From the IMG/VR virus record IMGVR_UViG_3300037882_000396, positions 1 through 27,891 of that record: a stretch of DNA of 27,891 nucleotides. One strand, given 5' to 3'. A program made the translations under genes and the position numbers. Source of the stretch: a virus. This document shows positions 14,556-25,275 of this stretch, piece after piece; the stretch's first letter is position 1; the number at the start of each line of letters is the position of its first letter. The notes beneath the pieces were generated by a model, which saw only the letters and a list, made by a program, of their open reading frames with translations, did not search any database and was not told the DNA's origin.

Positions 14556-15425
14556 TTACCACCACCGCATGATGATTAGACCGGGAGCGCCATTTCCACC
14601 ATTGCCGGATGTGCCAGATGAAGCATTGCCACCCCCGCCGCCGCCAGAACCATAACCACCGCCATTGCCGCCACGGTTTGCTCCAGTACCTGCGCCGTTG
14701 ATACCACCACCACCTGCGCCGCCGATAAATGTCAAAGGCTTATATAAGGCAATGCCGTGATTGCCGGGGTTGTCGCCAGTTGCGCCACCTGAAATAGTAG
14801 GGTATCGAACAGATGCAGAGGTTTGGTTTCCTCCAGCTCCACCGCTAGAACCACCACCACCAGCACCAGAAGAGATATAAGTGCTTGATTGAACCGCGAC
14901 ATGCCCACCGTTTGTCGTCGTGCCAGAAGACCCAATAAGTCCTGCTACCGCTTGCCATGTCCCAAGGTGGGCTAAATCCATATTAGCAATAGTGGCAATT
15001 GTCCCCGGAGAACCGCCAGCTGCGGAGGCAGCCCCACCAGAGCCAGCATTAGCATAAATCAACATATTTTCATCAATTACTGCGGGCTGATATGAAATAT
15101 AAGAACTAGTACCAGCACTACCCGAAGTATTGTTTGCCGTAGCCCCCAATCCACCAAGCCCCACACAAACGTAAACCATGTTACCTATGGCAGAAACTGG
15201 GCCAGTCCATCTTGAAACTCCGCTACACCCCCCACCGCCAGCACCTGCTGTTCCCACAGCTACGTTAGGTCGTCCACCACCACCACCACCGGCAATTACA
15301 GTAAAGTCAACCATTTGCGCTTCTTTTGGAATCGCAAGCGGCCTCCATCCGGTTGAAGTAGATGAAGAAAAGCCGGGTATCCATATCTCCCGCGGCCCCA
15401 TGACTAAATGACGCGCGTCAATCAT
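14556..15425 (-). CDS. Glycine-rich fibre-like protein
   Basis: This is a 289-residue protein. After a short N-terminus (MIDARHLVMGPREIWIPGFS), a beta strand (MVDFTVIAGGGGGG) leads into a long Gly/Ala/Ser-rich region with many GGGG runs. The C-terminus is GAPGLIIMRWW. This is the typical glycine-rich domain of phage fibre or adhesin tips, often polyglycine-II sandwiches, and the ending matches that of such domains. It sits among structural genes far from the main tail fibre, so it may be a head fibre or second adhesin. GAGG lies 7 nt before the ATG. Confidence 0.75.
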   Translation of the reverse strand: MIDARHLVMGPREIWIPGFSSSTSTGWRPLAIPKEAQMVDFTVIAGGGGGGRPNVAVGTAGAGGGGCSGVSRWTGPVSAIGNMVYVCVGLGGLGATANNTSGSAGTSSYISYQPAVIDENMLIYANAGSGGAASAAGGSPGTIATIANMDLAHLGTWQAVAGLIGSSGTTTNGGHVAVQSSTYISSGAGGGGSSGGAGGNQTSASVRYPTISGGATGDNPGNHGIALYKPLTFIGGAGGGGINGAGTGANRGGNGGGYGSGGGGGGNASSGTSGNGGNGAPGLIIMRWW

Positions 15426-23328: not shown

Positions 23329-23645
23329 GCTTTCACCTTTAATGCTTCTTTCGCCTTTGCAAGCATTGCGGCCACCTTTGCGCTGTCAACTGCTGGAGCA
23401 GGCAATGCCTTAAACACAGGTGGCGGCATGGCGTTACAGATGCGCTTAAATTGCCCCACGGTGCAAGGGTCGTCCGGCAGGTTAAGCAGGCCATGCGCGA
23501 TGTTTTCAGGCGGCATGTTGCGAAGTTCATGCGCCCAATCGCCCTTAACGTCCAATAGATCAACACCTTCCCAAATTCCCAAAAACTTGCGCCCCCATCG
23601 AAGCGTCATCTTTTTGAAAATCACGTCAACAATTTCGTTATTCAT
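23325..23645 (-). CDS. Possible P-like helicase-loader / replication partner
   Basis: The 106-residue product starts at the ATG (23645) with GGAG 7 nt before it. The sequences VDVIFKKMTLRWGRKFLGIW, ELRNMPPENIAHGLLNLPDD and VGQFKRICNAMP resemble the C-terminal domain of phage replication P-like proteins that recruit the host helicase. The remainder is an Ala/Lys helix. It overlaps the DUF1376-type gene by 8 nt, which matches the O-P order in lambdoid replication modules. Confidence in the loader function is moderate, because no ATPase motif is present or expected. Confidence 0.6.
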   Translation of the reverse strand: MNNEIVDVIFKKMTLRWGRKFLGIWEGVDLLDVKGDWAHELRNMPPENIAHGLLNLPDDPCTVGQFKRICNAMPPPVFKALPAPAVDSAKVAAMLAKAKEALKVKA

Positions 23646-24444
23646 TTCCAATCTCCAAAGGTTTAGCCATTGCCAAAATCATGTCTGCTGCGTCAATGTG
23701 TGGCTTTCTTGCTGCAATGCTTGGAGCTACGGATGCGACCCTTTCAGCGGCTATTTGCGCGTCACGCTCACGGAATGACAAGCCGCCCGGAGGCTCTCGC
23801 TTGTACTGCTGCGCGTTCCTCATCCACGTTCGCCAACAAGCCAGCCAATCGGTCTTTGAAGCTTTGTACTCATGGTCGCGGAACTTCTCCGTTTCGGCGT
23901 TCAAGTCTACGGTTAGCCCGTTTTCAGATGCCCAATCAACCATATCGCGGGTAACAACAAAATCAGCAGGACATCGCTTGGATGCTTTTTGCTTGGGCGC
24001 TTGCGCCTTAGAAATACCGCTAGGTATTTCTGTTTTGGTTATTGGTTTATGGTTATTGGTTAATGGTTTATGGTTAGGTGGCGTTTCGTCAACGTCTTGT
24101 GTACGGTTCGTGCTAGTTTGTTTACGCTTCGTTTCACGATCTATGGCAATTTGCTTGTTTTTGTCTGCCTTAGCGTGATATTCAAGCAACTCAGCAAGAA
24201 TCCGCTCTTGGATATAGCAGCCTTCGCTATCCAACTTAAAGAATCGACCTAGGACAAATTTGACCGCCTCTACCTCTGCTTCCGTCGCTGCCCAAGTCCA
24301 TTCAATAGCTTGCTCAAGCGTGGGGAACGTCTCACGGTCATAGCACGAATCGATCAAAAGCGTGTACGCTCCGTGCTGTAGCATAGTCAATCGACCTGCT
24401 TTCTTGGCATAGTCGCCAAGGTTTCGCTTGTAATAATGCATCAA
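23638..24444 (-). CDS. DUF1376-type replication initiation-like protein
   Basis: This is a 268-residue protein. The N-terminal domain (HYYKRNLGDYAKKAGRLTML, then HGAYTLLIDSCYDRETFPTL, about residues 2-90) is DUF1376, a winged-helix-like domain of phage replication proteins. A flexible basic linker has NHKPLTNNHKPITK. The C-terminal domain (about 160-220) has WLACWRTWMRNAQQYKRE, a signature seen in replication initiators or primosomal partners. The linker is encoded by tandem repeats (24037-24078). Genes and iterons in this layout are comparable to lambda O with its internal origin. The start overlaps the HNH stop by 4 nt. Confidence 0.8.
   Translation of the reverse strand: MMHYYKRNLGDYAKKAGRLTMLQHGAYTLLIDSCYDRETFPTLEQAIEWTWAATEAEVEAVKFVLGRFFKLDSEGCYIQERILAELLEYHAKADKNKQIAIDRETKRKQTSTNRTQDVDETPPNHKPLTNNHKPITKTEIPSGISKAQAPKQKASKRCPADFVVTRDMVDWASENGLTVDLNAETEKFRDHEYKASKTDWLACWRTWMRNAQQYKREPPGGLSFRERDAQIAAERVASVAPSIAARKPHIDAADMILAMAKPLEIGNE
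24037..24078 (-). repeat. Three 14-bp iteron-like repeats in the replication gene, candidate origin
   Basis: Three consecutive 14-bp units (plus strand GGTTATTGGTTTAT, GGTTATTGGTTAAT, GGTTTATGGTTAGG) encode the NHKP linker of the replication protein. AT-rich repeats within the initiator gene recall the lambda ori inside O. An origin role is inferred. Confidence 0.6.
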
Positions 24445-24944
24445 GCAACCCTCCCAAACGCACCATGTAATTTATTGCTTGCCTCAATATATTTTTTGTG
24501 AGCTTCTTTAGGGTCTAAGAAATGACCCAGAAAATAATTTTTTTGATTGAACATGATTTGCGCTCTCCACTTGGCTTTATCCTTGCACCATATAACTCCT
24601 TTGTACCCACTCGTGTTGGTTTTATACAAACGACTGTTTTGTGCATTCTCTGCCTTTGTTGCAAATCTCAAATTTGATCGACGGTTATTTAATCCACATC
24701 CGTCTATGTGGTCAACTGCAATTGACTTCTCGCCTCCCATAATCACGGTATGCAAACCAATCGCTTTTCTTTTTCCTTTGCGCCGCTCCTTCATCTCTGC
24801 ATAAACGGTATGTGTTTTGACGTGCGCATGCCAATTAAACCTATCCACCAAATGCACGTCATCCGAATCAATGATCGCTACATATCCCTTTGTTAGTGGT
24901 ACATATGCAACATCGCCTTTTATGGTGATTTCTCTAGCCTTCAT
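24441..24944 (-). CDS. HNH-AP2 homing endonuclease
   Basis: This is a 167-residue protein. The N-terminus (VPLTKGYVAIIDSDDVHLVD) and the core LHTVIMGGEKSIAVDHIDGC, then GLNNRRSNLRFATKAENAQN hold the HNH motif (His of DHID, Asn-Asn, His earlier). The C-terminal TSGYKGVIWCKDKAKWRAQI, then FLGHFLDPKEAHKKYIEA is an AP2 DNA-binding domain. It is a free-standing selfish element inserted ahead of the replication genes. Its own start has only a poor ribosome binding site (GGA) and lies just after a folded element with a T-run, so expression is likely limited. Confidence 0.9.
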   Translation of the reverse strand: MKAREITIKGDVAYVPLTKGYVAIIDSDDVHLVDRFNWHAHVKTHTVYAEMKERRKGKRKAIGLHTVIMGGEKSIAVDHIDGCGLNNRRSNLRFATKAENAQNSRLYKTNTSGYKGVIWCKDKAKWRAQIMFNQKNYFLGHFLDPKEAHKKYIEASNKLHGAFGRVA

Positions 24945-24957
24945 GTCAAAAATTCCA

Positions 24958-25041
24958 ATAAAAAAGGCTTCACCTGCGTTCTCCTCGTTTTAAGAGGTTG
25001 ACCGAACGGGGTAGTACCCGCCAGAACGCATGTGAAGCCTT
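24958..25041 (-). ncRNA. Candidate structured RNA / terminator-like element before the HNH-AP2 gene
   Basis: A 19-bp arm pair with one mismatch (24964-24982 with 25023-25041) encloses two small hairpins (24983-24997, CCTC/GAGG; 25007-25020, CGGG/CCCG), forming a three-way junction. On the minus strand the stem is followed by TTTTTT, so it could terminate early transcription before the endonuclease and replication genes. The internal loop strand carries CTCTTAAAA, the core of a lambda-type boxA. A small RNA, an antitermination site or an attenuator are all possible; I cannot tell which. Confidence 0.6.
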
Positions 25042-25080
25042 ACTACAAAATCGCGGTCAAGCGATAAACGATATTTTACA

Positions 25081-25275
25081 TCATTCTGGATTGATGTCAA
25101 CGAAGCGGTTGCAATTTCTTAAAGGAATAAGCCAAGGAGCCATGCGATTGCTCGGGTCTTCCATGTGGGCGATGTAGCGCTGACAGGTTTCCCTGCGTTT
25201 ACAGTACTCAGGCTCGACATCGCTCCAGATTTCACCGTCGCAGCGCTGTGAGTCTCGGGGTAGATTGTGTGTCAT
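25081..25275 (-). CDS. Small Cys-containing early protein
   Basis: The 64-residue product starts at MTHNLPRDSQRCDGEIW, whose ATG overlaps the upstream stop (ATGA). It has three Cys in CDGEIW...YCKRRETCQRYI plus one near the C-terminus (LRNCNRF). It could bind a metal ion. No family is recognised. It lies immediately upstream of the structured element at 24958-25041. Confidence 0.6.
   Translation of the reverse strand: MTHNLPRDSQRCDGEIWSDVEPEYCKRRETCQRYIAHMEDPSNRMAPWLIPLRNCNRFVDINPE

Follow-up and report, generated by a model that had tools for sequence, protein, structure and literature searches.

What is the compact, strongly folded RNA encoded just ahead of a homing endonuclease gene and the replication genes of this phage? 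The window, i.e., the whole 27,891-nt stretch of DNA analysed, encodes at 24960-25064 on the minus strand an RNA of ~100 to 107 nt, composed 5' to 3' of a hairpin with UUGACCG (b1), the segment GUAGUA (a1), and a terminator stem that encloses two hairpins and runs into U6. Within the terminator stem are a hairpin with the loop UACUAC (a'), a single-stranded CGGUCAA junction (b'), and a second hairpin. The reading that we favor, with somewhat better than even confidence, is a self-targeting, C4-type attenuator RNA of the phage replication operon. Its parts are as follows.

25073..25100, minus strand: sigma-70-type promoter TTGACA-16-TAAAAT, with a predicted RNA start at ~25063-25067.
25051..25064, minus strand: hairpin 0 (UCGC-UUGACC-GCGA) with b1 UUGACCG in its loop; it folds in the full-length RNA and its flanking pairs covary.
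25054..25060, minus strand: b1 target segment TTGACCG, complement of b'; pairing with b' is perfect in 45/45 elements with non-consensus b1.
25041..25046, minus strand: a1 target segment GTAGTA, complement of the a' loop; 61/68 distinct pairs are complementary.
25023..25041, minus strand: P1 terminator stem, 5' arm, from folding and from covariation in 15/17 pairs.
25005..25022, minus strand: P2 hairpin, from folding and covariation; its closing G-U pair is invariant (38/38).
25011..25016, minus strand: a' (TACTAC) in the P2 loop, complement of GTAGTA.
24998..25004, minus strand: b' strand of the junction (CGGUCAA), single-stranded in the terminator fold; it covaries with b1.
24983..24997, minus strand: P3 accessory hairpin, from covariation; it contains a nonconserved boxA-like string.
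24964..24982, minus strand: P1 terminator stem, 3' arm, from folding and covariation.
24960..24965, minus strand: U6 run of the intrinsic terminator; a T-run ends nearly all true relatives.

The P1 stem of the window has 19 positions, 18 of them paired and one an A-G mismatch, and the folding energy of the element is -45.7 kcal/mol, against -29.3 +/- 3.4 in 200 dinucleotide shuffles (z -4.9). The sequence-only reading had located this stem with its two hairpins and U6 correctly, and both complementarities that it described, TTGACCG/CGGTCAA and GTAGTA/TACTAC, are present; the promoter at 25073-25100, the hairpin displaying TTGACCG, and the assignment of the RNA to a replication gene were absent from it. 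TTGACCG occurs 13 times across the window, so from the window sequence alone these short complementarities could be due to chance, as that reading had cautioned, but the relatives retain both a1:a' and b1:b' pairing far above chance.

Rfam 15 gave no match for the window element at the gathering threshold and chance matches only at E<=10, and BLAST of the element against phage records gave no match. The first relatives were reached through relatives of the downstream DUF1376/primosomal gene, and at four such loci (L002, L004, L039, and L074) a homologous RNA of differing sequence and the same architecture lies directly upstream of that gene. Searching with the conserved hairpin plus junction as a pattern, b1 and b' being fixed, brought up at least 120 stretches of viral contigs. 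Hairpin and T-run identify 115 of 131 matches among the loci then collected as true elements, and 45 more came from two patterns with different b1 sequences. The final set has 123 distinct elements; nearly all are from metagenomic phage contigs, many of which are fragments. The annotated phages with the element are MW202462 and MW202544, which are of equal length and come from one spring. The few bacterial genomes that carry it suggest Burkholderiales-type hosts, and with 2/299 genomes in the family of genome G001 and 1/369 in its class (G001 being counted in both), the element is rare in bacterial genomes.

Some of these loci have features of their own. The hypothetical gene annotated at 14777-15019 in MW202544, which lies across the RNA but runs the other way, is probably spurious; on the strand of the RNA itself, no annotated gene begins until ~700 nt further on, and one immediately after the RNA may therefore have escaped annotation. 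Three relatives (L110:2036, L183:5771, and L263 at ~1598 on the minus strand) lack a U-run behind the same core and have a small hairpin and then a start codon there; control at these loci may be translational or Rho-dependent. One phage contig with a C4-like element also codes for a Betaproteobacteria-1 RNA (RF02932, 103 bits; L106:6892-7009).

An alignment of 38 sequences supports the structure. Across its 44 pairs, 93.4% are standard base pairs, compared with at most 44.5% when the arms are slid by 1 to 3 columns; both sides change in 33 of the 44 pairs, with double changes in 15/17 pairs of P1, and none of 500 shuffles reaches the observed covariation. The compensatory changes that the sequence-only reading had proposed as support are thus present in the stems, and all helices covary, as do a1:a' and b1:b'. 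Not counting the invariant G-U pair, G-U combinations outnumber A-C combinations by 51 to 5 in P1, P2, P3, and hairpin 0, consistent with an RNA read on the minus strand of the window. Complementarity of at least 5 nt between a1 and a' is seen in 61 of 68 distinct pairs, whereas reassigned loops average 13.4 and never exceed 24. Because the first search pattern had fixed both b1 and b', their pairing was assessed separately with the partner base left free, and it is perfect in all 45 matches with a T-run (full elements) and in 0/5 matches lacking one. The CAAC of the junction is invariant, and the a' loop comes in at least 42 versions, with as many as five among elements whose P1 arms are identical. 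That the loop evolves faster than the P1 stem is a trend only, drawn from few close pairs.

The genes behind the RNA in the window are the following.

24441..24944, minus strand: HNH_3/AP2 homing endonuclease gene between leader and replication gene; in other relatives this position is empty or codes for another endonuclease.
23638..24444, minus strand: DUF1376/primosomal replication gene, which is probably the one regulated; 84/116 relatives have a replication initiation gene behind the element.

Among the 116 relatives with a readable downstream gene, in which families were named from cluster representatives, a replication initiation gene is immediately next in 53 and lies within ~1 kb, after a small open reading frame (ORF) or an endonuclease gene, in 31 more; a ParB-like gene is downstream in 17. 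This recurrent position before replication genes had also been proposed as support, and the element heads a replication operon. The first gene codes for a homing-type endonuclease in ~23/116 relatives, with NUMOD4, HNH_3, HNH, GIY-YIG, and T5orf172 all represented. The earlier suggestion of an RNA travelling with the HNH gene does not survive the comparison, as in relatives the RNA can sit immediately ahead of a replication gene without any HNH gene, and the endonucleases that do occur are of varying type; the HNH gene of the window is best read as an insertion between leader and replication gene, not as a partner of the RNA. A HEARO or IscB omega RNA was rejected, as there is no Rfam match and the nuclease is absent or of other types in the relatives. 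A put- or nut-type antitermination site is likewise disfavored: the boxA-like CTCTTAAAA is indeed present in the window but recurs in 1/123 relatives and is not conserved.

The same site is occupied by varied genes. The window gene at 24441-24944 and the first genes of L167, L093, L100, L125, and L133 represent at least five endonuclease families at a shared position between the leader terminator and the following gene, which is a replication gene in most, and this suggests that the site behind the leader terminator is preferred for endonuclease insertion. At L097:5945-6196 and 11 similar loci, a conserved ORF of 64 to 84 amino acids with no known family lies between leader and replication gene.

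Several features delimit the transcript. Among 102 distinct upstream regions, the motif TANNNT peaks 13 to 18 nt before hairpin 0, so that, judging from sequence, the RNA probably starts at hairpin 0 and ends at the U-run. In most relatives the first start codon is ~16 to 21 nt after the start of the T-run. Folds were computed with ViennaRNA, which models neither pseudoknots nor cotranscriptional speed. In a transcript ending 12 nt past b', b1:b' is preferred in 84/94 elements, and b1:b' and a1:a' form together in 62/94; the nascent fold of the window itself has b1:b' and lacks a1:a'. In the full-length RNA, b1:b' forms in 0/94, hairpin 0 is intact in 92/94, and the terminator stem also forms in the examples inspected. 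When heads are swapped between elements sharing b1, a1:a' pairing falls from 95 to 44 of 123. As modelled, the nascent and full-length folds are the mutually exclusive folds of an attenuator; any switch between them has to be kinetic, given how much less stable the antiterminator is than the complete terminator. The terminator, the attenuator switch with an alternative fold, and the small RNA, which had been listed as separate options, are borne out jointly by the covarying terminator and competing pairings, the exclusive folds, and the abutting promoter.

From these features we infer a direction for the switch, an action in trans, and a use in replication control. Transcription would start just before hairpin 0, and the early RNA would pair b1:b' and a1:a', blocking the P2 and P1 stems and thus acting as an antiterminator. 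Synthesis of the 3' arm of P1 would then let the RNA refold into P1-P2-P3, which is more stable, and the U-run would end transcription ~15 to 20 nt short of the first start codon. In the resulting ~100-nt RNA, a' would be exposed in a loop and b' in an unpaired junction, as in C4 of phage P1, and by analogy this RNA may act on nascent leaders, binding a1 and b1 of newly started transcripts of the same specificity. Such binding would keep a1 and b1 of the leader from forming the antiterminator, enforcing termination, and the outcome would be negative feedback on replication gene expression that is specific to phages sharing a1/a'. The three relatives lacking a U-run (L110, L183, and L263) weigh against this feedback model.

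The rival with the most to recommend it, which we regard as possible though rather unlikely, is an attenuator working only in cis, with the same two folds, a protein, transcription speed, or some other signal as its input, and a released RNA that has no function. Both folds and all pairings covary, and b1:b' and a1:a' would also be conserved if they acted only in cis, which counts against the trans model. However, the core matches that of C4, which is described as trans-acting (PMC8546580), and the diversity of the a' loops is more like recognition specificity, albeit with a rate comparison that draws on few pairs. The RNA could instead be a C4-like small RNA whose main target is some other mRNA of the phage or the host, the match to the leader then being of secondary importance. 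Its own promoter and terminator would suit such a role, and C4 of phage P1 does have a second target, a2/b2, at the start of icd; we nonetheless consider this improbable, because additional a+b sites in the flanks of 115 loci (~1 Mb) number 187 against 209 +/- 14 expected by chance. With no second target enriched there, the leader is the only target found.

Two other accounts fare worse. A plain intrinsic terminator closing the upstream early genes would explain the strong stem with U6, and early genes do lie upstream on the same strand, but the promoter, the b1 and a1 pairings, the three-way junction, and the invariant CAAC would all be superfluous, making this very improbable. Scarcely credible is a role at the DNA level, as a structured replication origin or single-strand initiation site for example, for which the position before replication genes might speak; the bias of G-U over A-C, the terminal U-run on the minus strand only, and the position of the promoter are all contrary to it.

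A tyrosine integrase, the type searched for, is coded by 3/47 long element-bearing contigs and by 0/22 contigs with a related primosomal gene, three of which also carry the element; most element-bearing phages may therefore be nonintegrating, and lysogenic immunity is not assumed as the main role. Two bacterial-chromosome copies of the element are 17 and 25 kb from an integrase gene. We tentatively raise the prospect, which we hold to be doubtful, of an RNA-only superinfection or copy-control system that is widespread in mostly nonintegrating freshwater phages. In that event, the terminated leader would shut down the replication operon of any coresident genome with the same a1/a' code, and there would be plasmid-like incompatibility groups among phages. 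Under the self-targeting model itself, the a1/a' code would predict which phages can inhibit each other, with one short RNA holding target, antisense, and terminator.

The closest known RNA is the C4 antisense RNA of phages P1 and P7 (RF01695). Both have a long stem enclosing two hairpins, and in both a G-U-closed recognition hairpin with a target-complementary loop is followed by a target-complementary junction of the YNGNCAAC type, the core common to phage P1 C4 and the element being the G·U-closed loop hairpin plus a NNGNCAAC junction. In phage P1, the recognition hairpin is GCTGG-TTTCACTAAC-GCCAGT followed by CTGTCAAC, with annotated targets a1 (TTGACAG) and b1 (GTTAGTGC) upstream of C4; in a typical element, TTGGCGG and CTCAGTA lie in that order upstream of GCTGG-TACTGA-GCCAGT, after which comes CCGCCAAC, and one relative (L219) has TTGACAG/CTGTCAA. 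The naming is swapped, such that "a" of phage P1 is b here (junction) and its "b" is a here (loop), but the order of the targets is the same, TTGACAG then GTTAGTGC in phage P1 and TTGACCG then GTAGTA in the window, all upstream. The recognition loop and the CAAC junction are thus complementary to paired targets, as in C4. For c4-a1b1 (RF03163) the picture is mixed: the upstream targets agree with it in order and sequence type, and its model gives no match.

The element also differs from C4. The accessory hairpin (P3) is 3' of the recognition hairpin in the 38 aligned elements and 5' in C4; the targets of the element abut the stem, b1 is in a hairpin loop, and the RNA ends in its own intrinsic terminator; and the element precedes replication genes, not an antirepressor. 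No counterpart of the second phage P1 target was found, including at ribosome binding sites downstream of the elements. The C4 model has no match in the window (E<=10) or in four relatives (E<=1), nor at gathering in 15 loci, 14 of them screened for the element (the phage P1 control scores 68.8 bits), and a model built from the elements does not match phage P1. From the sequences, we take the recognition cores to share an ancestor or to have converged strongly, and do not regard the element as a member of RF01695. The C4 core would thus tolerate rearrangement, with variants that the Rfam model misses, and the C4-type architecture would extend to a large environmental phage group in which it has moved onto replication genes.

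Two other systems share parts of this logic. The P4 CI RNA pairs with leader sites and ends transcription into the replication genes (PMC4825925), and like P4 CI and seqA-seqC immunity, the element would be a leader-derived RNA that pairs with leader sequence upstream of itself. P4 CI, taken here from its description, is made by processing and has a downstream target as well, whereas the element is a promoter-to-terminator unit with a single upstream target pair, the only one present even when the ~1 Mb of flanks is included. In pT181 and pIP501, an earlier "pre-emptor" pairing is in competition with a terminator located ahead of the replication initiator gene (PMC5703833). The element resembles these in having a terminator before a replication gene and an earlier competing pairing, and computed folding gives exclusive terminator and pre-emptor folds at that position. 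The antisense RNA of pT181 and pIP501 comes from the opposite strand as a separate countertranscript, whereas here the attenuated leader itself would be the regulator.
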